Shown here one piece after another: positions 1 to 26,576 of a stretch of DNA of 28,231 nucleotides; within the stretch, counting starts at the first letter, position 1, and the number at the start of each line of letters is the position of its first letter. The stretch is from positions 1 through 28,231 of IMG/VR virus record IMGVR_UViG_3300025093_000660; one strand, 5' to 3'. The position numbers and the translations under genes were made by a program. Under the pieces are notes generated by a model that ran no database searches, was not told the origin of the DNA, and saw nothing but the letters and a program-made list of their open reading frames with translations. This DNA is from a virus.

Positions 1-104
1 TTTGTGCGTTTGCGTTGTTGATGGGCTTGTTCTGTTCGGTCCCAGTAGAAACAGAGAAGGGTGAGTCCTCCACCGAAGGCGAGGGGGATGAGTAGGTCTC
101 GCAT
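1..104 (-). CDS. Small membrane protein, 3' end beyond window
   Basis: This short reading frame starts with ATG at 104 and is still open at base 1, so the C-terminus is missing. The visible 34 residues begin MRDLLIPLAFGGG and continue through a hydrophobic stretch (about residues 4-20) into a charged tail rich in Arg, Gln and Lys. That is the layout of a single-span small membrane protein. The start codon follows directly on the TAA stop of the gene upstream, which suggests translational coupling. No Shine-Dalgarno is obvious. I do not recognise a family. It is one of a run of small membrane proteins, so a role at the cell envelope (lysis or superinfection exclusion) is possible but unproven. 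Confidence 0.5.
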   Translation of the reverse strand, partial: MRDLLIPLAFGGGLTLLCFYWDRTEQAHQQRKRT

Positions 105-191
105 TTATCTGTCCCGTAGGAAGAGATCTACCAGCATCATGATAAGGATTACTCCTAAGACTATTCCGTAAGAAAGTACTACTGTATCCAT
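105..191 (-). CDS. 28-residue membrane micro-protein
   Basis: ATG at 191, TAA at 105-107, immediately followed by the ATG of the next small gene. The product is 28 residues. It has an almost uninterrupted hydrophobic core (about residues 4-24, rich in Val, Leu and Ile) ending in the charged tail FLRDR, so it would be a single transmembrane helix. The stop/start contact with the next frame argues that both are real and co-translated. No strong ribosome binding site is seen and no family is recognised. Confidence 0.45.
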   Translation of the reverse strand: MDTVVLSYGIVLGVILIMMLVDLFLRDR

Positions 192-280
192 ATTGAGTGT
201 TTCTGTATAGGGTAATTGGGTACTTTGGTGGGTTTTTGGATCGTGGAGGTGTTTAGCGGTCGTTTATTGGGGTGGGTTGT

Positions 281-625
281 TTAGTCTATGCGGGGTGATG
301 GGTAGGCTCGGACGAGTTGGGTGAAGTCTTTGAAGAAGAGGTAGATGACTCCGTGGTTTTCTTCCCAGATGATGGAGAAGTACGGATCGGGTCGGCGGCT
401 GAGGTCTTCTAGGAAGGAGTGGTTGTCTGCGATGGGGGCTGAGATGCTGATCGGGTAGGGTGTGTCATCGTAGGCAGCTATTCTATCTTCCTTAATCTGG
501 ATTAGCAGATTTAGCTGGTCGGTTTCTTTGATGACCGTTCCGTCGTTTTTGTCTGTAATTTTGACGTATTTGCGGTCGGTATCTATGTACCAGTAGTTGT
601 CTTCGGCAGCGAATTCGTAGATCAT
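281..625 (-). CDS. Hypothetical protein, 114 aa
   Basis: Starts with ATG at 625 (MIYEFAAEDN), with a modest upstream AGGAAA. The start overlaps the stop of the upstream frame by 4 nt (ATGA), typical of coupled phage genes. The product is acidic and rich in Tyr and Asp, with no transmembrane segment and no motif I recognise. The alternation of charged and aromatic residues suggests a small mixed alpha/beta soluble protein. The 89 bases that follow (192-280) hold no gene and no convincing promoter or terminator. Confidence 0.7.
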   Translation of the reverse strand: MIYEFAAEDNYWYIDTDRKYVKITDKNDGTVIKETDQLNLLIQIKEDRIAAYDDTPYPISISAPIADNHSFLEDLSRRPDPYFSIIWEENHGVIYLFFKDFTQLVRAYPSPRID

Positions 626-855
626 TGGGGGTAATTTCCTACTGTGTTTACGAAATTAGCGGTTTCGGTCATATGGGAGTAGCCTCGGCGGAGGGCTTTT
701 AACGTGGGTTTGATGCTTAAAATCATGAACATTGCCGCCGCCACACCCCACAGGGTACGCTCTTTCCACACCGGAATCGACGGTCTCGTTCTGGACTTTA
801 TCACCTTCATGTTGGCTTTTTGGTACCCGGGGGAAGATGGCATCCGCACGGACAT
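622..855 (-). CDS. Small predicted membrane protein, 77 aa
   Basis: ATG at 855 is preceded by GCGAGG about 5 nt upstream. The stop overlaps the next start by 4 nt (ATGA). One transmembrane segment is predicted at about residues 35-50 (LWGVAAAMFMILSI), with a basic N-terminal half (Lys/Arg-rich) and a polar C-terminus. Starting at the internal Met16 would give a 62-residue protein with the same membrane segment. The family is not recognised. A second reading frame overlaps most of this gene; this frame is preferred because of its coupled stop and membrane segment. Confidence 0.55.
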   Translation of the reverse strand: MSVRMPSSPGYQKANMKVIKSRTRPSIPVWKERTLWGVAAAMFMILSIKPTLKALRRGYSHMTETANFVNTVGNYPQ

Positions 856-934
856 AGGGGCCTCGCTTTTCTCTTCTCTTTGTCGTAAAGTTTACCTCCC
901 ACACACTCTGTTCCGGACGGAACTTTACAAACAT
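656..934 (-). CDS. Possible overlapping ORF, 92 aa
   Basis: This frame opens with ATG at 934 (MFVKFRPEQSVW) and covers 855-934, which otherwise holds no gene. The first 45 or so residues look protein-like: mixed hydrophobic and charged, ending in a basic patch around KRREKRGPYV. The second half, which overlaps the membrane-protein frame, is rich in Gly, Pro and His and looks like out-of-frame sequence. No Shine-Dalgarno precedes the start. It could be a short gene that ends by frameshifting into the neighbouring frame, a true overlap, or noise. Confidence 0.3.
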   Translation of the reverse strand: MFVKFRPEQSVWEVNFTTKRREKRGPYVRADAIFPRVPKSQHEGDKVQNETVDSGVERAYPVGCGGGNVHDFKHQTHVKSPPPRLLPYDRNR

Positions 935-973
935 GGTTAGTATTTTTACGACGTTTAGCCACTAGTTAAATCC

Positions 974-1159
974 TCAAATTTGGTCCATTGAGGAGGTCTT
1001 TTCTTCGATCTGTTCCCATGTTTCATCCAGCCGAGCAAGCCTCTCTTGAAAGGTTCTATTCCATTCTGAGAGGTCTTTTTCTAGCTGCCGAACCAGCCAA
1101 ATGTTAGCGACGATGGCTGATGCGATCAACGATACCATGACGATGAGTGCTAGAATCAT
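974..1159 (-). CDS. Small membrane-anchored coiled-coil protein
   Basis: The 61-residue product has an N-terminal transmembrane helix (about residues 2-22, ILALIVMVSLIASAIVANI) followed by a charged heptad-like helix (LEKDLSEWNRTFQERLARLDETWEQ region). One span plus an amphipathic helix is typical of inner-membrane spanin subunits and some holin-like phage proteins. It is also common in small phage membrane proteins of no known role. The start overlaps the upstream stop by 4 nt (ATGA at 1156-1159). No lipobox partner or endolysin is present in the window, so a lysis role is only a suggestion. Confidence 0.6.
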   Translation of the reverse strand: MILALIVMVSLIASAIVANIWLVRQLEKDLSEWNRTFQERLARLDETWEQIEEKTSSMDQI

Positions 1160-1452
1160 GTCTTTTTTCGTCTTTCGATAGGGAATTTACGGGGAAATTT
1201 AAAGAACTTTGCCTTGTTCCACATGGAAGTTCTGAGCGTATAGGGGATGAAATCGTCACCTCGGCGGGCTTTCATGAACCCTGAATTGCTCTGCTGCCTC
1301 ATGCTTTTACGGGAAAAATAGTACAATAACGACACCAAAAGGTTAGCTAGAGCTACCTTTATCAGTAGGTTCCCAGGGTAAACAGCAATAAACAACAGCA
1401 GCACAGGTGTGGATAGCTGCCATCGTAAGAAGTAACGTAAGAATTGCCTCAT
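1156..1452 (-). CDS. Two-span membrane protein, holin-like topology
   Basis: 98 residues from ATG at 1452 (MRQFLRYFLRW). Two hydrophobic segments are visible, at about residues 14-27 (TPVLLLFIAVYPG) and 30-46 (LIKVALANLLVSLLYYF). They are followed by a strongly basic C-terminal tail ending RRKKT. Two spans with a basic C-terminus match class II holin topology, but small size and topology alone cannot assign that function. The gene is coupled by ATGA to the coiled-coil membrane protein downstream and sits 3 nt after the small acidic gene upstream, so the group is probably one operon running from Hsp20. Confidence 0.6.
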   Translation of the reverse strand: MRQFLRYFLRWQLSTPVLLLFIAVYPGNLLIKVALANLLVSLLYYFSRKSMRQQSNSGFMKARRGDDFIPYTLRTSMWNKAKFFKFPRKFPIERRKKT

Positions 1453-1455
1453 ACA

Positions 1456-1623
1456 TTACAGTTCCTCATCCGACGATAGGGTCAGCGAACGGGCCGACTG
1501 CATCAAATCGAGCAGTCCGTTCTGCATATCGGCTGCCGAAACCACAGTGTGGCCTGCAACCTGCTTCAACATATCCTCAATTTGAGAGATAAAGTCGGTG
1601 ACATCCATAGTTGAATCAGTCAT
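1456..1623 (-). CDS. Small acidic protein, 55 aa
   Basis: ATG at 1623 is preceded by a clear ribosome binding site (AAAGGA, then TAGAA, then ATG) and the frame ends with TAA at 1456-1458. The 55-residue product begins MTDSTMDVTDF and ends SSDEEL. It is acidic, mostly helical in composition, and has no membrane segment or Cys. The start overlaps the end of the upstream 48-residue gene by 8 nt, and the stop lies 3 nt before the next start. The strong binding site and tight packing support a real gene of unknown function. Confidence 0.6.
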   Translation of the reverse strand: MTDSTMDVTDFISQIEDMLKQVAGHTVVSAADMQNGLLDLMQSARSLTLSSDEEL

Positions 1624-1762
1624 TTCTATCCTTTGGTAGTGGCTTGACGTACTCGCCGGGAGGCTGAGTAATCAAACCGATGAACGGTTGCGTGAATGTA
1701 TATCCCTCAAACGGGTCTTCGCCGTAACGTAGCTTACGTAGCCACTTCTTAAACTTCTTCAT
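1616..1762 (-). CDS. Small basic protein, 48 aa
   Basis: ATG at 1762 (MKKFKKWLRKLRYGEDPF), TGA at 1616-1618. The N-terminus is a very basic amphipathic helix (seven Lys/Arg in the first twelve residues). It is followed by a short Gly/Pro-containing segment and a charged C-terminus. It starts 17 nt after the Hsp20 stop and overlaps the next gene by 8 nt, so it is likely transcribed from the Hsp20 promoter. The basic helix could bind nucleic acid or lie on a membrane surface. No family is recognised. Confidence 0.5.
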   Translation of the reverse strand: MKKFKKWLRKLRYGEDPFEGYTFTQPFIGLITQPPGEYVKPLPKDRND

Positions 1763-1779
1763 GTATATACTGATTCTAC

Positions 1780-2202
1780 TTACGAGATCTCGATCTCAAT
1801 CGGCTGCTGCTCTTCCGGAATGACCTTCTCTACATTGATACTCAGCAAGCCGTCAGCCATCGACGCAGACACAACTTCCACGTTGTCTGCGAGTGTAAAC
1901 GTCTTCTTGAAATACCGCTTTGCGATACCACGATGAATAATCTTACGATCATCAAGGGTATCAGACTGGGTAGCCACAATCAGTTTACCACCGTCTACCG
2001 AGACGCTAATATCTTCCTTGGTAAAGCCAGCAACCGCAATCTCAACAACAAAATGCGTGTCGTCCGTCTTAACAATGTTATATGGCGGGTACGACTTGGA
2101 TGCTTCATCAAACTGAAGCACTGATTCCAAGTGATCAAACAAAGAATCAAACCCGATACTCAAAGGCCGAAGCCGGTGCAAAACGCTCAAATCTGAAGCC
2201 AT
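1780..2202 (-). CDS. Hsp20 / alpha-crystallin small heat-shock protein
   Basis: An ATP-independent holdase chaperone that forms oligomers and keeps unfolding proteins soluble. The 140-residue length is normal for the family. The alpha-crystallin domain spans about residues 39-127, with the hallmark A-x-x-x-GLL type motif at MADGLL (115-120). The C-terminal I-x-I anchor is present as IEIEI (135-139), which docks into a neighbouring subunit. ATG at 2202 has a good binding site (TTAGGAGATT). Small heat-shock proteins are common in T4-like cyanophages and other aquatic phages, where they are thought to help virion protein folding or host survival. A near-consensus promoter lies just upstream, making this the first gene of the small-gene operon that runs to base 1. 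Confidence 0.93.
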   Translation of the reverse strand: MASDLSVLHRLRPLSIGFDSLFDHLESVLQFDEASKSYPPYNIVKTDDTHFVVEIAVAGFTKEDISVSVDGGKLIVATQSDTLDDRKIIHRGIAKRYFKKTFTLADNVEVVSASMADGLLSINVEKVIPEEQQPIEIEIS

Positions 2203-2260
2203 AATAATCTCCTAAAGCATAGTTATGTTTCTACAAGGACCCAATCGGCATCCTCTGTTT

Positions 2261-2289
2261 ATTATACCTGTTTTAACCATGAGAGTCAA
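2261..2289 (-). promoter_or_regulatory. Sigma70-type promoter for the hsp20 operon
   Basis: Read on the minus strand: -35 TTGACT (2284-2289), a 17-nt spacer and a perfect -10 TATAAT (2261-2266). It sits between the CCA end of tRNA-Thr (2294) and the Hsp20 start (2202), with a predicted leader of about 50 nt. It matches host RpoD consensus. The phage's own RpoD-like sigma factor might also read it. Confidence 0.8.
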
Positions 2290-2293
2290 AACT

Positions 2294-2369
2294 TGGAGCC
2301 TCCGACAGGAATCGAACCTGCGACCTGCTGTTTACAAGACAGCTGCTCTACCAACTGAGCTACAGAGGC
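2294..2369 (-). tRNA. tRNA-Thr (anticodon UGU), CCA encoded
   Basis: Full cloverleaf on the minus strand. The acceptor stem GCCTCTG pairs with CGGAGGC (one G-U), the D arm is GCTC...GAGC, and the anticodon loop CTTGTAA gives UGU. The T arm is GCAGG-TTCGATT-CCTGT and the 3' CCA is encoded (2294-2296). It reads ACA codons. It lies 1 nt from tRNA-Arg, so the two are probably processed from one transcript. Confidence 0.93.
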
Positions 2370-2370
2370 A

Positions 2371-2447
2371 TGGCACCCTCGGCAGGACTCGAACCTGCAA
2401 CCGGCGGGGTAGAAACCCGATACTCTATCCAATTGAGCTACGAGGGC
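2371..2447 (-). tRNA. tRNA-Arg (anticodon UCU), CCA encoded
   Basis: Cloverleaf on the minus strand. The acceptor stem GCCCTCG pairs with CGAGGGT (terminal G-U), the D arm is GCTC...GAGT, and the anticodon loop TTTCTAC gives UCU. The T arm is GCAGG-TTCGAGT-CCTGC, the discriminator is G and CCA is encoded. The top pair of the anticodon stem is mismatched (T-C). It reads AGA, a codon often rare in bacterial hosts. Confidence 0.92.
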
Positions 2448-2453
2448 AAAGAA

Positions 2454-3338
2454 CTAGTAGTCGATACCTTTCTTCGCAGCGATACCGCTGTCGTAAGCGT
2501 GCTTATGGTTACCCATGACCGTAACAGTGTCTGAGATGTCCATGAGCCAGTCAGGGGCGTCACGGCCCGTCAGAACCAGCGAGGTGGCCTCAGGGCGGCT
2601 CTCAATCGCTGTACGGACCTCCTGAGCGTCGATCCATCCCCAGTTGATAGGGTACGTGATCTCGTCAAAAACAATAAGACGATACTTGCCGCTCTCAATC
2701 AGGGCCTTGCCTTGCCGCCACGCTTCACGAGCCTCAGCCTCAGACTGCGACAAATCTTCACTATCCCAAGTAAAGCCGTCACCGAGCGACCAGAAATCGA
2801 CACCCAACGGTTCGGCCATCTTCTGCTCGCCCGTAACCCAATCAGGACTCTTCAAAAACTGAACAACAGCCACAGGCCAATCCCTAGCCCGAGCACGAAG
2901 CATAATACCGAAAGCCGACGAAGACTTGCCCCGGCCATCGCCTGTGTTCAAAACCACGAGACTCTTTACGTTGCGTAGTGTTTCTGGCCTCGGATCTTCT
3001 TCCAGCGGAGCCGGAGTAGGCGCCTCAGGAGCGTCTGTAAGCGGCTCAGTTACATGCTCAGGAGTACCGCTGCTAACGTCTAGACGGTACTCGTAAACGT
3101 TTTGATCAGATCGCATACGGGTTTCAATCGTGAAACCACCAAACTTCTTCTTACGTAAGTCACGCATCCGGGCTGATGCTGAAGCTTCAGGAGCGTCAGC
3201 AAGCAAACTAATCTCGCTTAAAGGTAGCCACTTTTCCGTGGCCATCACATCATAAACACGAACCAGCTGCTTCTTAAGCCGAGGGTCTTTCTTAGCGCCT
3301 TCAAGATCGCCATCACCATCAAATAGACTTTGCATCAT
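2454..3338 (-). CDS. Winged-helix / cob(I)alamin adenosyltransferase fusion (CobO/BtuR family)
   Basis: The C-terminal domain (about residues 124-294) is a CobO/BtuR-type ATP:corrinoid adenosyltransferase, which converts cobalamin to adenosylcobalamin. It shows the P-loop GDGRGKSS (133-140), VAVVQFLKS, GFTW (188-191), the acidic DEITYPINWGW motif (225-235) and the terminal block VLTGRDAP...KHAYDSGI..KGIDY. The N-terminal domain (about 20-87) is a winged helix with a recognition-helix region PEASASARMRDLRKKKFGG. This domain recurs in phage proteins, especially in actinobacteriophages from memory. A Pro/Glu-rich linker (88-122) joins the two. Typical CobO is near 200 residues, so 294 reflects the fusion. 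ATG at 3338 or 3335 follows AAAAAGGA. A likely purpose is coenzyme supply for a B12-dependent (class II) ribonucleotide reductase, but none lies in this window. The enzyme family is secure and the role of the DNA-binding-like domain is unknown. Confidence 0.88.
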   Translation of the reverse strand: MMQSLFDGDGDLEGAKKDPRLKKQLVRVYDVMATEKWLPLSEISLLADAPEASASARMRDLRKKKFGGFTIETRMRSDQNVYEYRLDVSSGTPEHVTEPLTDAPEAPTPAPLEEDPRPETLRNVKSLVVLNTGDGRGKSSSAFGIMLRARARDWPVAVVQFLKSPDWVTGEQKMAEPLGVDFWSLGDGFTWDSEDLSQSEAEAREAWRQGKALIESGKYRLIVFDEITYPINWGWIDAQEVRTAIESRPEATSLVLTGRDAPDWLMDISDTVTVMGNHKHAYDSGIAAKKGIDY

Positions 3339-3351
3339 TCTTCCTTTTTAG

Positions 3352-3441
3352 TGGCGGAGAGGGTGGGATTCGAACCCACGGAGGCTGTGACACCTCAACG
3401 GTTTTCAAGACCGGCCCATTAGTCCACTCTGGCACCTCTCC
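3352..3441 (-). tRNA. tRNA-Ser (anticodon UGA), CCA encoded
   Basis: A 90-nt class II tRNA on the minus strand. The acceptor stem GGAGAGG pairs perfectly with CCTCTCC. The anticodon stem-loop CCGGT-CTTGAAA-ACCGT gives UGA. There is a long variable arm, the T arm is GTGGG-TTCGAAT-CCCAC, the discriminator is G and CCA is encoded (3352-3354). It reads UCA codons. It lies 6 nt after the dCMP deaminase stop and just before the CobO fusion gene, so it is probably cut out of the shared transcript. Confidence 0.93.
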
Positions 3442-3447
3442 CGGTTA

Positions 3448-4005
3448 TCACAATGTGTGAATTTTACCTGTACTATCTTTCCATTGTGTCAACGAATGCG
3501 AATCATAAGACTTCTGAACCGGCTCAGGAACCGGCATCACTTCAGCCCTATCATACAGAATCAGTTCAATACTAGACTGAAGCAACAACTCCTGCACCTT
3601 AGGCAAAGACGGACGGTTCTCACGAATACCGTGAACCAGCCGAACACCGCTGTTAGCGATAAGTTTCGCACAATCAAGACAAGGCTCACCGTTCACATAC
3701 ATAACCACGCCGCCCATACGGGCACGGGCGTTGAAATCGCTATGCAACAAAGCGTTAGCCTCAGCATGAACAGCAACACAATCACTGTAATCAGAAGACT
3801 TATGGCCGCTTCCTGCAAGAGCACGAGGACACGCACCCTGATTACAATGCGCAGCGCCCCGAGGAGCACCGTTGTAGCCTACGCCCAACACAAAGCCGTC
3901 AGTATCGACAATGATTGCCATATACTGACTCTTAGAACAGGTAGAGAACAACTTGGCTCCCTGATCTGCCCACTTTAGAAACTTGAAGTGCTTTTCAGTA
4001 GACAT
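3448..4005 (-). CDS. Deoxycytidylate (dCMP) deaminase
   Basis: Zinc-dependent deaminase converting dCMP to dUMP, feeding dTMP synthesis for phage DNA. The catalytic HAE is at 80-82 and the zinc ligands are in PCLDC (Cys109, Cys112). The segment VGYNGAPRG (42-50) matches the substrate-binding region of dCMP deaminases. The 185-residue length fits the family. Additional Cys54, Cys59 and Cys76 near HCNQGAC could form the second, structural metal site known in some phage dCMP deaminases, but this is not proven. ATG at 4005 has the strong binding site GGAGG 4-5 nt upstream, and that site sits inside a UUCG-capped hairpin (see 4011-4028). No thymidylate synthase is in the window. A second, different deaminase lies upstream. 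Confidence 0.9.
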   Translation of the reverse strand: MSTEKHFKFLKWADQGAKLFSTCSKSQYMAIIVDTDGFVLGVGYNGAPRGAAHCNQGACPRALAGSGHKSSDYSDCVAVHAEANALLHSDFNARARMGGVVMYVNGEPCLDCAKLIANSGVRLVHGIRENRPSLPKVQELLLQSSIELILYDRAEVMPVPEPVQKSYDSHSLTQWKDSTGKIHTL

Positions 4006-4010
4006 ACTAC

Positions 4011-4028
4011 CTCCGACCGAAGTCGGAG
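4011..4028 (-). promoter_or_regulatory. UUCG-capped hairpin covering the dCMP deaminase Shine-Dalgarno
   Basis: On the minus strand the RNA folds as a perfect 7-bp stem, CTCCGAC and GTCGGAG, closed by a C(UUCG)G tetraloop, one of the most stable tetraloops known. The 3' arm carries GGAG of the GGAGG ribosome binding site, which ends only a few bases before the ATG at 4005. There is no downstream T run, so it is not a classical terminator. It could restrain initiation, act as an RNA processing or stability element, or protect the 5' end of a processed transcript. Confidence 0.65.
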
Positions 4029-4053
4029 CGCTCTGAGCCTAAAGCCTATTTAA

Positions 4054-4069
4054 CGTCGCTCAGACGACG
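4054..4069 (-). terminator. Short hairpin after the 95-aa gene
   Basis: On the minus strand CGTCG-TCTGAG-CGACG forms a 5-bp stem, followed by the AT-rich TTAAATAG, 6 nt past the stop of the gene ending at 4076. It resembles a weak intrinsic terminator or an mRNA-stability hairpin. The T run is poor, so termination would be partial at best. Confidence 0.35.
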
Positions 4070-4075
4070 GTACGA

Positions 4076-4363
4076 TCATCGGGTGGTCGCAACAACCTCG
4101 CCCCACGCCATGCCCTTGTTGGCACGGGTGTTAGCCTCACGGACCCAAGCGGTAGCCGCCGGGTTCAGGAAACGATCGTACTTGCGGTTGCCCTGCAGAG
4201 AACGAATCTCACGGGGCGAAAGACCGGCAGCATGCAAAGCATTACCGATAAGGCCACGAGGATGACGATACGTCACCATCTTCGAGGAACGGTTACGGGC
4301 CTTCGGGGCACGATCCGCAACCTCACGAGCTGCCTCAATAATTGCCTTCTTCGTAATCAACAT
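4076..4363 (-). CDS. Small basic hypothetical protein, 95 aa
   Basis: The chosen start is ATG at 4363 (MLITKKAII), behind AAAGGAG. An in-frame ATG at 4378 exists but would lie only about 11 nt from the predicted transcription start. The product is strongly basic (Arg/Lys-rich, AAREVADRAPKARNRSSK) and has a helix-turn-helix-like stretch around HAAGLSPREIRSLQGN in the middle. That could indicate DNA binding, but I do not recognise the family. The gene has its own near-consensus promoter (4396-4424) overlapping the end of the upstream deaminase gene, and a weak hairpin after its stop. It may therefore be expressed independently of its neighbours. Confidence 0.7.
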   Translation of the reverse strand: MLITKKAIIEAAREVADRAPKARNRSSKMVTYRHPRGLIGNALHAAGLSPREIRSLQGNRKYDRFLNPAATAWVREANTRANKGMAWGEVVATTR

Positions 4364-4395
4364 AATCTCCTTTGTCATAGATGCTGATATTGGGT

Positions 4396-4424
4396 ATCTT
4401 ACTAGCCTAAACAAAGTGCGTCAA
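4396..4424 (-). promoter_or_regulatory. Sigma70-type promoter before the 95-aa gene
   Basis: Minus strand: -35 TTGACG (4419-4424), 17-nt spacer, -10 TAAGAT (4396-4401). The -35 box overlaps the TGA stop codon of the upstream deaminase. The predicted transcript starts near 4389, about 26 nt before the preferred ATG at 4363. Confidence 0.6.
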
Positions 4425-4795
4425 GGCCAGACTCTAAAGAATTTCCACTCCCCCAACTCATCCGTGTAATACACCTTCTTAATACCGTGGTCCCTGATCG
4501 TTTCCATACAACGAGAACAAGGCTTAGCCAACGCCAAATTGCCTCCCCGAGTAACCCGGGCCACAAACAACTTGGCGCCATCCGTATCACCGGCATTCCG
4601 CAACGCATCAACCTCCGCATGCACCGAGCAATGAAAATACTTCTCATGCTCAACAACGGAAGGATTATTGCGGTAACGGTTATATCCCTTACCCAGAACA
4701 GAGCCACCACGCCACACAACAGAACCAAGCTTCCACTTATCGTGGCTTGAATGTTCGGCCATAGAGACCGCTAGTGTCATCGCTGTAGTGCTCAT
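4421..4795 (-). CDS. Second CDA/dCMP-type zinc deaminase, 124 aa
   Basis: Belongs to the cytidine/deoxycytidylate deaminase superfamily: catalytic HAE at residues 59-61 and zinc ligands in PCSRC (Cys93, Cys96), numbering from ATG at 4795. It is shorter than, and clearly different from, the dCMP deaminase at 3448-4005. It lacks the VGYNGAPRG segment and instead has SVVWRGGSVLGKGYNRYR. The substrate is unclear: a free cytidine or deoxycytidine base or nucleotide, or a tRNA or modified nucleoside, are all possible. The frame is open back through the tRNA-Lys gene, but that extension encodes the tRNA and is not protein. ATG at 4795 lies 5 nt from the tRNA 3' end with no Shine-Dalgarno. Internal Met codons at 4780 and 4762 are alternative starts. 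Confidence 0.8.
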   Translation of the reverse strand: MSTTAMTLAVSMAEHSSHDKWKLGSVVWRGGSVLGKGYNRYRNNPSVVEHEKYFHCSVHAEVDALRNAGDTDGAKLFVARVTRGGNLALAKPCSRCMETIRDHGIKKVYYTDELGEWKFFRVWP

Positions 4796-4800
4796 AGTAG

Positions 4801-4872
4801 TGGGAGTGGTGGGGATCGAACCCACGCTCTTCGGATTAAAAGTCCGCTGCCTTACCGCTTGGCTACACTCCC
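4801..4872 (-). tRNA. tRNA-Lys (anticodon UUU), CCA not encoded
   Basis: Cloverleaf on the minus strand. The acceptor stem GGGAGTG pairs perfectly with CACTCCC, the D arm is GCCA...GGC, and the anticodon stem-loop GCGGA-CTTTTAA-TCCGA gives UUU. The T arm is GTGGG-TTCGATC-CCCAC and the discriminator is A, then CTACT and the ATG of the deaminase gene. CCA is not encoded and must be added after transcription. Reads AAA (and AAG by wobble). Confidence 0.93.
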
Positions 4873-4886
4873 GTGTAGTAGACAGT

Positions 4887-4914
4887 ATGATAACGGCCTT
4901 GTAGGGAAAGTCAA
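4887..4914 (-). promoter_or_regulatory. Sigma70-type promoter for tRNA-Lys and deaminase
   Basis: Minus strand: -35 TTGACT (4909-4914), 16-nt spacer, -10 TATCAT (4887-4892), ending 14 nt before the first base of the tRNA. The short leader suggests the transcript is mostly tRNA followed directly by the deaminase message. Confidence 0.6.
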
Positions 4915-4930
4915 CCCCTGAACCCAACTT

Positions 4931-23622: not shown

Positions 23623-25557
23623 CTAAAACTCGTAAGTCGGTGACTCAAAAAGTGCCTTCCGCAAAGTCTCGTCACCGTACTTCTTGCGGTCGTCGTCAGT
23701 CAACTCAATTACCTCATGTTCACCTTCTGTATATAGCGTGCCCCACGACTCTCCACCGAGGTCAGGCTCAGTAGAAATGTGAACATCTTTGAGTATCATC
23801 TCCATAACCACCCCCGCTTCCCGGCACATCTCTACAGCCGTCTCTTCAGGGAAACTAAATAGGATCTCATCGTGGATGGGAAGCAAAGCATAGTCCCAAT
23901 AACCGGCCTCGTACAGCTTCACCATGGCTCTACCGAGAACATCTCGGGCCGTGGACTGAATGCAGTAGTTGAGTGCAGCGTAGGGCCTCTCAGCGTCTAC
24001 AGGAAGCTTCCTGCCAGTGTGTGTAATAACATAGTTACGCTTGCCTGTTTTAACCGGATGAGCTAGCTGGTGCGCATAGCGGGTCACGCCCTGGTAGGTG
24101 CTGTCGAACAAGTCGCACACTTTCTGGGCTTCTTCAACTGAAAGTCCTGATTGTCTAGAAAGTGTCTGGGGACCTGCCCCGTAAACCTTACCGAAGTTAA
24201 CTGTTTTAGCAATTTTTCGGGTAACTCCAGTGTTGTCAGCGGTCGTTTGGTGCAGGTCGCCGCCTTCTTTGAACACCTGCAACATAACAGGGTCTTGGGA
24301 AAGTGCCGCTAAAACTCTTAGCTCTACGCCAGAGAAGTCGATAGAAGCCATCCGGCATCCTTCTTCTGCAAGGAACATTCGACGTATAGCATCGCCGCTA
24401 GACGGTAGCTGCTGCAACGGAGGGTCTGTCAAGGACATTCTCCCGGTTCGTGCTTGCAAGCTGTTCATCTTGGGATGGACTCTCAAATTGCTGTCCATAC
24501 TGGCAAGAGAAGAAATTACGTAACTATCTCGCCATTTAGCACTGTTCTTAGCAGCCATAACCGCACGGGCAAGCTCTCCGGCCATACCGGAGTCTTCATC
24601 GTCAATAACAGACTGCAAAACCGTCTTATCTACCTTCAAGCCGCCTGAAGCAGTAGTTTCAGTGAGTCGCACCCCTAGCTTAGTCAAAGCCTCAGCCACG
24701 TCTTTTGTAGCGTTATGGTTTTCGACCCCAAACGAGCGAACGACATCAATATGGGCCTGCTCTTCAGCGTTCATTTGCTCAACAAGCTGTTCGGCGTAGC
24801 CTACGTCAATACGCAGGCCCCGACGTTCCATGTCAGCCACAAGCTTCAGAATCTGATGCTCATACCTGACCAAATGGTCCATAGTTTGACGTTTAATTTC
24901 CTTACGCAAATGAGGAAACAAACGAGCCGTCAAAATAACGTCCGTGCCCGCATAGTGAACCAGCGTCGGATGTGCTGCAGGAATGTTTCGCCAACCTTCC
25001 TTAACCGACCACTTCTGCTGCTTAAACAAGTCCTTAAGCGCCTGATCCGAATCAGGAGCACTCTTGTCAACATGATGCGCTGCAAGGTTCTTCAAACCGT
25101 GACCTACACCGCCCTCAACTCGGCTACGAGGATCAGCCAAATGCGACAAAATCTTCGTATCATAAGTTCTATCTAAAAGCTCGATAGCGTCAACATGATT
25201 GTGGCGATCCAGTCCCAACGCATCGAAAACAGCATTATGAGCCAGAAGCCTACAATCGGTCTCGCTCATCACGATATCAATAGATCGCTGAAACCACGGC
25301 TCTTTCCAAATGAACACAAACGCTTCATCCTGATCGCCCCATTGAATACTCTTAATCTCCCAAGTTGTGGAGAAAATATCAAGGCCCGTGGCCTCAATGT
25401 CGTATGCAAGAGGACGCTGCTTACTAAACAACCAGTCTCTGAAATTAGCAAAATCGTCGTCAGACCTTACCAGCGTGACGTTGCCGATAGACGTATCAGC
25501 TACATACGTTTCGTGCAGCCAATCATCAAACAAAGTAAGGGAGGTGTCTTCACTCAT
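23623..25557 (-). CDS. Family A DNA polymerase with 3'-5' exonuclease
   Basis: 644 residues. The N-terminal proofreading domain has intact DEDDy motifs: YDIEATG (Asp53, Glu55), AHNAVFD (Asn108, Asp112) and YAGTD (Tyr202, Asp206). The polymerase domain has motif A SIDFSGVELR (catalytic Asp407), motif B RKIAKTVNFGKVYG (Arg447, Lys451, Phe455) and motif C IHDE (Asp563). Phe455 aligns with E. coli Pol I Phe762, the site used to sort environmental phage polymerases. There is no 5'-3' nuclease domain, typical of phage replicative Pol A. The start overlaps the GMP reductase-like stop by 4 nt (ATGA). A second exonuclease of the same superfamily is encoded two genes upstream. It is most likely the replicative polymerase. 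Confidence 0.95.
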   Translation of the reverse strand: MSEDTSLTLFDDWLHETYVADTSIGNVTLVRSDDDFANFRDWLFSKQRPLAYDIEATGLDIFSTTWEIKSIQWGDQDEAFVFIWKEPWFQRSIDIVMSETDCRLLAHNAVFDALGLDRHNHVDAIELLDRTYDTKILSHLADPRSRVEGGVGHGLKNLAAHHVDKSAPDSDQALKDLFKQQKWSVKEGWRNIPAAHPTLVHYAGTDVILTARLFPHLRKEIKRQTMDHLVRYEHQILKLVADMERRGLRIDVGYAEQLVEQMNAEEQAHIDVVRSFGVENHNATKDVAEALTKLGVRLTETTASGGLKVDKTVLQSVIDDEDSGMAGELARAVMAAKNSAKWRDSYVISSLASMDSNLRVHPKMNSLQARTGRMSLTDPPLQQLPSSGDAIRRMFLAEEGCRMASIDFSGVELRVLAALSQDPVMLQVFKEGGDLHQTTADNTGVTRKIAKTVNFGKVYGAGPQTLSRQSGLSVEEAQKVCDLFDSTYQGVTRYAHQLAHPVKTGKRNYVITHTGRKLPVDAERPYAALNYCIQSTARDVLGRAMVKLYEAGYWDYALLPIHDEILFSFPEETAVEMCREAGVVMEMILKDVHISTEPDLGGESWGTLYTEGEHEVIELTDDDRKKYGDETLRKALFESPTYEF

Positions 25558-26576
25558 GCCACAATCATATCGTGCGGAGCGGACTCACGCAAGGAGGCGT
25601 TGGAAACTTTCATAAACGTAGCGTTGTTATGAAGCTCAAGAATGTTCTTCGCACCCACATAGCTGCAAGTAGACTTAATGCCTCGCTCCAACCCTTCAAC
25701 GATGGATTCAACGCTGCCCTTGTAGTCAACGTAGCCTGACACGCCCTCGGGGTAGTCAGAGCCTGCGGCTGTTGAAGCCATACCACGGTAAGCCTTTACC
25801 TTCTTACCGTCTACTTCCATGATCTCGCCGGGTGCCTCGTCGGTGCCTGCAAACATGTTGCCAATCATGACGGCATCTGCACCAGCGGCTAGCGCCTTAG
25901 CGGCATCGCCGGGAGTCTTGATACCACCATCAGCAATAATCTGCACATCATAGGCGTCGGCGGCTTCAGCACAATCAGCAATAGCAGTTAGCTGCGGAAC
26001 GCCAACACCGGTCACAACCCTGGTCGAACAAGCACCGCCCGGACCGATACCGACCTTCACGACATTAGCACCAGCTTCAGCAAAGTCAGCAACACCCTGA
26101 CCGGTAGCCACATTACCGCCAACAATCGTCACTTCGTGATCAAACTGATCCTTAATGTAGTGGATAGCGTCCAATGCGTGAGCGCTGTGGCCGTGGGCAA
26201 TATCTAGGACAACGATCTTAGTTCGCCAATTGTTGACCTCTCTAATTACCGTATCAAGGTCGTCGTTGACGCCGAACGCTACAGCAGTGCGGTTAGTTCT
26301 ACCCGCTACACAACCAAATCGGGACGCTAGCGGATCCATAGCCTTCAAAGGGATGTTGCGGTGAATTACACCGAAACCTCCCAAACGATCCAAAGCTCCA
26401 GCCATTTCATGCCCGCAAACAGTATCCATGTTGGCAGCGATTATAGGAATCCGCATATCAACATGGCCTAAACGAGTAGACAAATCTACGTCTGACCGGC
26501 TACGAACTTCCGAATACCGAGGAACAATAAGGACATCTTCGAAAGAAAGTCCTTCAGTTTCAGTCATCTTCAACAT
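25554..26576 (-). CDS. GMP reductase / IMP dehydrogenase family enzyme without CBS domains
   Basis: A TIM-barrel purine enzyme, 340 residues. It shows [24 protein letters not shown] at the N-terminus, [17 protein letters not shown], the catalytic-Cys loop [20 protein letters not shown] (Cys183), [35 protein letters not shown] and [37 protein letters not shown]. The T-R-x-x-T-G-V-G-x-P-Q wording around the Cys resembles GMP reductase (GMP to IMP). IMP dehydrogenase (IMP to XMP) is the alternative. The CBS pair of typical bacterial IMPDH is absent and the length fits GMP reductase. ATG at 26576 overlaps the previous gene by 17 nt, and ATG at 26567 is also possible. It overlaps the DNA polymerase start by ATGA, tying purine metabolism to replication. 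Confidence 0.88.

Follow-up and report, generated by a model that had tools for sequence, protein, structure and literature searches.

A winged-helix domain fused to a host-type corrinoid adenosyltransferase in a tRNA-bordered slot of a phage lineage

Results

A phage gene that joins two proteins

Analysis of a linear 28,231-bp virus record from IMG/VR (a fragment, hereafter the window) identified a single gene in which a predicted phage winged helix is joined, through a short linker, to a CobA/CobO/BtuR-type ATP:corrinoid adenosyltransferase. We consider it likely, all parts taken together, that the host-derived CobA half supplies the cofactor of a class II ribonucleotide reductase (RNR) and that the winged helix was attached to it in a lineage-specific fusion; the winged helix itself is best explained as an N-terminal addition that was opportunistic or mildly adaptive. 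Because the window is a 28-kb fragment, absences from it carry little meaning. The parts of the gene are as follows.

2454..3338, minus strand: fused gene, winged helix, linker and CobA/CobO/BtuR-type ATP:corrinoid adenosyltransferase, 294 aa
3078..3284, minus strand: predicted winged-helix domain, residues 19-87 (AlphaFold2 and Foldseek; 77-row alignment)
3191-3135, minus strand: recognition-helix motif PEASASARMRDLRKKKFGG, residues 50-68
3009..3038, minus strand: fusion linker TDAPEAPTPA, residues 101-110
2457..3008, minus strand: CobA domain, residues 111-294
2945-2919, minus strand: P-loop TGDGRGKSS, residues 132-140
2777-2766, minus strand: GFTW, residues 188-191
2669-2652, minus strand: FDEITY
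2468-2457, minus strand: C-terminal GIDY

The open reading frame reported in the initial annotation was recovered at exactly the same coordinates, on the minus strand, and encodes 294 aa; it starts with ATG shortly after an AAGGA-type Shine-Dalgarno sequence and runs without interruption, and translation of the plus strand across 2454-3338 encounters many stops. When the two halves were compared pairwise with their homologues, dN/dS was 0.08 for CobA and 0.12-0.14 for the winged helix, values that cover the time before as well as after the fusion and do not isolate the post-fusion branch. Purifying selection thus seems to act on both halves, and the low ratios argue that the reading frame is not a chance one.

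The CobA half matches the Pfam family PF02572 (CobA_CobO_BtuR) along its full length (positions 2-172 of 172, residues 125-294; E = 2.2e-54, 184.7 bits vs. a cut-off of 25.7); the fused protein also exceeds the cut-off of NF004637 (194.1 vs. 185) and falls slightly below that of TIGR00708 (160.8 vs. 167.75). All 23 columns that are invariant among 26 aligned CobAs are present in the window, including the P-loop TGxGxGK, GFTW, DE (225-226) and TGR (257-259). The closest solved structures are those of Salmonella CobA (4HUT, 1G5R/1G5T/1G64; E = 7e-35), and in a full-length AlphaFold2 model the CobA half is mostly confident, with a TM-score of 0.92 to 1G64, normalised to the target. Judged by sequence, this half is a complete ATP:corrinoid adenosyltransferase, and it is predicted to be catalytically active; the full-length family match and the invariant columns agree with the earlier description of a complete CobO/BtuR domain with its P-loop and terminal motifs.

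Residues 1-100 match no Pfam model above the cut-off; a few homologues of the winged helix show weak matches to HTH_5/HTH_24, and among PHROGs there is only a weak match to phrog_25381, a family without annotated function. The N-terminal region was modelled with AlphaFold2 from a 77-row alignment of the window and 76 homologous viral sequences; joint MAFFT alignments of winged-helix and CobA rows misaligned the halves and were left out of the modelling. The model, with a core pLDDT of 84-91, consists of a helix (19-32), a short strand (38-39), two helices (40-47 and 51-62) and two strands (70-76 and 81-87), i.e. the H1-S1-H2-H3-S2-wing-S3 topology of winged helices, and Foldseek matched it to winged helices of the MarR/ArsR/TFE type with a probability of 1.00 (best E = 0.0036). 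On the modelled structure, residues 19-87 are a winged helix, with boundaries very close to the range of about 20-87 given previously; the topology and the Foldseek matches together indicate that the protein had been described correctly. The domain may bind DNA in the fused protein.

A cargo slot with exchangeable content

The fused gene occupies a slot (2294-3441) between tRNA genes, next to a gene of nucleotide metabolism.

3352..3441, minus strand: tRNA-Ser(UGA), upstream border of the slot
2371..2447, minus strand: tRNA-Arg(UCU), downstream border of the slot
2294..2369, minus strand: tRNA-Thr(UGU), the neighbour of tRNA-Arg in those slot-bearing relatives long enough to include it
3448..4005, minus strand: dCMP deaminase, the neighbour with a role in nucleotide metabolism

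We surveyed 15 contigs that share a small gene adjoining this tRNA cluster. The slot holds CobA alone, 89-90% identical to that of the window, in two relatives (L140 and L145), and tRNA-Trp with the winged helix alone in three others (77% identical in L146 and L147; L148 as far as the contig reaches). A further relative has only tRNA-Trp (L142), five have tRNA-Ser and tRNA-Tyr with neither CobA nor the winged helix (L149-L153), and three have no tRNAs at the slot (L141, L143 and L144). One contig closely similar to the window (L139; 95% DNA identity over 4 kb) shows the same winged-helix start directly after tRNA-Ser and ends eight codons into the gene. The intact fusion is seen in one metagenomic contig only, the window itself. 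Slot content thus swaps between close relatives: domain shuffling, one of the possibilities raised in the initial annotation, is seen directly in syntenic phages that carry CobA alone, the winged helix alone or the fusion.

Within the tRNA cluster, just upstream of the dCMP deaminase gene and flanked on its other side by a small conserved gene, lies a Pistol self-cleaving ribozyme (RF02679; window 4005-4069, minus strand; 70.8 bits, E = 6.5e-11), which is also found in at least two relatives (L139, 4243-4307; L150, 6292-6361). Elsewhere in the window, an IMP dehydrogenase/GMP reductase-like gene (25554-26576, minus strand; PF00478, E = 8.7e-104) is located directly upstream of a family A DNA polymerase gene, with an overlap of a few bases.

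The fused protein comprises almost the whole stand-alone winged-helix protein, the linker and almost the whole stand-alone CobA. The linker is bounded by the last residues common to the stand-alone winged helices (..VTEPL) and the first residues common to the stand-alone CobAs (PLEEDPRP); its ten residues, rich in Pro and Ala, occur in neither stand-alone gene, and the reading frame is preserved through them. Confidence of the AlphaFold2 model is low across the linker, which is predicted to be flexible. The stop of the stand-alone winged-helix gene (CTTAAGTAA) aligns with CTTACAGAC in the window.

The winged helix as a stand-alone phage protein

Searching viral DNA with a pattern for the core motif PEASxSARxRDxRK yielded at least 119 stretches. 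Among the matches listed, nearly all open reading frames end about 30-75 residues after the start of the motif, and a few have longer C-terminal extensions; the domain is thus normally a small protein of its own. In Mycobacterium phage PenguinLover67, a protein annotated as an exonuclease begins with a homologous domain. Among 123 open reading frames neighbouring the winged-helix genes, the commonest Pfam assignments, as raw counts, were PDDEXK_1 (7), DUF2800 (4) and DNA methylases, and DnaB, PolA, RecA and ssDNA-binding protein were represented once or twice each, which suggests a DNA-metabolism context for the stand-alone genes.

Origin of the CobA half and the probable host

In a scan of bacterial genomes, the nearest cellular CobA was that of an Acidimicrobiaceae metagenome-assembled genome (MAG; locus L154), with 73% identity, well ahead of others. 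There, the CobO gene lies in an operon (15-5342) with genes for BtuC/BtuD-like transporter components, a CobU-like kinase, CobT and CobS (CobT, CobS and the ABC ATPase assigned by profile, the other genes by sequence reading), and the gene content points to corrinoid uptake and B12 salvage. The phage and MAG proteins also have in common a stretch that precedes the domain (APPEEDPRPDGLRSAKSL vs. APLEEDPRPETLRNVKSL), and in a phylogenetic tree three phage CobAs group with the Acidimicrobiaceae CobO with support of 100/99. These observations indicate that the CobA half was captured from an Acidimicrobiia-type host and that the two halves have separate origins, CobA from the host and the winged helix from phages. 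A relative (L013) carries a gene for WhiB, a protein characteristic of actinobacteria and of the phages that infect them. The host is probably a marine, Acidimicrobiia-like actinobacterium, an assignment that draws on the CobA phylogeny and one WhiB gene.

Class II RNR and proposed cofactor supply

The closest long relative of the window phage (G001, a 90-kb contig, L008) carries in the same slot a CobA that is 90% identical to that of the window. Its genome is predicted to encode an adenosylcobalamin-dependent class II RNR of the monomeric type (RTPR; 673 aa, L008:12960-14981) that matches TIGR02505 with E = 1.4e-100 and 337.5 bits, slightly below the cut-off of 340, and carries a C-terminal CATGACPIR. 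The link between adenosylcobalamin and class II RNR that had been drawn from the CobA domain gains support from this gene. A B12-dependent RNR, which the initial annotation proposed to look for elsewhere in the genome, is thus seen in this sister phage; within the 28-kb window, a fragment, no RNR gene was detected. None was detected either in the other 15 slot-relative virus records, which are fragments of up to 55 kb. RTPR may nevertheless be encoded in the window phage's own genome and use the CobA product. Directly after the RNR gene of the sister phage, there is a peroxiredoxin gene (L008:15012-15530).

The window encodes two dCMP deaminases and the following gene, whose product is a plausible reductant for class II RNR.

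5260..5646, minus strand: thioredoxin (PF00085, 1.6e-28)

The Acidimicrobiaceae MAG has class I NrdA and no RTPR match; the need for adenosylcobalamin may therefore arise from the phage RTPR itself. Among 1198 phage records that match RTPR, only seven match the fused protein at all, one of these through the winged helix alone; class II RNR thus does not need a phage CobA. Control by a B12 riboswitch was considered and rejected, given that no cobalamin riboswitch reached the gathering threshold in the loci scanned (the window, L002, L008 and seven other loci).

Under the proposed mechanism, the gene would be a phage auxiliary metabolic gene. Its CobA half, which came from the B12-salvage operon of a marine host of the Acidimicrobiia type, would adenosylate reduced cob(I)alamin with ATP as the donor; the resulting adenosylcobalamin would be used by the phage RTPR, which would convert NTPs to dNTPs for phage DNA synthesis. 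The Pro/Ala linker joins this enzyme to a phage winged-helix protein of 100 aa, which is usually found on its own in this slot. Most likely, adjacent cargo genes were read through or joined to give the fusion, which is at least tolerated.

Discussion

The alternative readings of the fusion bear mainly on the winged helix and can hold together with the cofactor-supply scheme. The leading one is a neutral or transient fusion, in which two independent cargo proteins came to share a polypeptide after the winged-helix stop was lost, each working as before. This is a serious contender, though we give it less than even weight: each stand-alone protein is kept nearly whole, the former stop has its counterpart in the window, there is a single fused example, and the winged-helix motif was found upstream and in frame in 0 of 80 bacterial CobAs, whereas no relative was found in which both genes are adjacent and unfused.

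Targeting of the enzyme to DNA or the replisome and a role as a regulator are less likely. If functional, the winged helix could keep adenosylcobalamin synthesis at phage DNA or at the replication machinery, handing the cofactor to RTPR where dNTPs are consumed. The stand-alone homologues adjoin PD-(D/E)XK and DUF2800 nucleases, DnaB, PolA, RecA and ssDNA-binding proteins, a homologous domain leads the PenguinLover67 exonuclease, and the winged helix has a low dN/dS relative to stand-alone copies. However, the neighbour counts are raw and low, with even the commonest family reaching only 7 of 123, the pairwise ratios mix the periods before and after the fusion, sister phages have CobA without the domain, one of them alongside RTPR, and a small cofactor diffuses, so that tethering would bring little obvious benefit. 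We therefore regard this reading as unlikely, and its most far-reaching form, in which the enzyme is held at phage DNA or replication complexes with production beside class II RNR during dNTP synthesis, as slightly less likely still.

A B12-sensing transcription regulator, loosely analogous to CarH, in which the CobA half would sense the ATP/corrinoid state and the winged helix would control phage or host genes, appears improbable. The winged helix is MarR/ArsR-like and CobA, by homology, binds ATP and corrinoid; however, CobA is a P-loop enzyme with a fold different from that of the cobalamin-binding domain of CarH, the linker is apparently flexible, no riboswitch or operator has been demonstrated and the fusion is not conserved. 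Least probable of all is an assembly chimera of two phages from one population, one bearing the winged helix and the other CobA: the fusion occurs once, in a metagenomic contig, relatives carry either half and the junction is not matched exactly by any sequence in IMG/VR, but this reading is disfavoured by the in-frame linker private to the fusion and by the independent contig L139, which has the same winged-helix start right after tRNA-Ser, though it ends eight codons in, and the winged helix of the window, at 77% identity to stand-alone copies, is not a near-copy of them.

The locus has several implications. Phages with B12-dependent RNRs occur widely in the sea, yet are reliant on host corrinoid; here, a phage lineage of probable Acidimicrobiia has acquired the adenosylation step from a host operon for B12 salvage, for which there are few phage examples, cyanophage P-SS2 among them. 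A gene fusion is caught among close relatives, with sister phages keeping the parts separately in one tRNA-bordered slot. Should the winged helix be functional, this would be a DNA-binding-type domain on a corrinoid adenosyltransferase, with no other case found in the sequences searched.

The arrangement appears to be undescribed. Scans for close relatives among viral contigs, run with the full-length protein, the winged-helix and CobA alignments, the P-loop pattern and a junction pattern, yielded no second fusion, and no paper joining a corrinoid adenosyltransferase with a winged helix was found in the open-access literature. The initial annotation's remark that no such phage protein was known to it is consistent with these results; phage CobO itself was already known (PMC2784084).

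Compared with Salmonella CobA (1G64/4HUT), the window protein has the same complete domain and invariant motifs, with about 35% identity and the structural similarity given above, but adds an N-terminal winged helix and a linker, neither of which Salmonella has; the P-loop reads GDGRGKSS in the window vs. GNGKGKTT in Salmonella. The phage winged-helix proteins that stand alone (~75-100 aa, with a weak match to phrog_25381), including the slot proteins of L012 and L013 (77% identity to the window winged helix), are homologous across the whole domain, but are unfused, and fusions to enzymes, such as the PenguinLover67 exonuclease, are rare. B12-dependent virioplankton with RTPR (PMC10547690, in the text of which 'cobO' does not occur) and the cobaviruses, for which dependence on host B12 synthesis has been argued (PMC6775973), resemble the present lineage in having a phage class II RNR that needs adenosylcobalamin. 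The pairing of phage CobO with class II RNR is already known from cyanophage P-SS2, which has cobO, class II RNR and thioredoxin in one genome (PMC2784084) and is thus similar in carrying a host-derived CobO; it has class II RNR in common with the sister phage and thioredoxin in common with the window. The N-terminal extension of the P-SS2 protein was considered as a winged helix and rejected, being a second CobO half. The P-SS2 CobO is a tandem protein of 344 aa with two P-loop halves, no winged helix and a cyanobacterial origin, whereas that of the window is single and fused.
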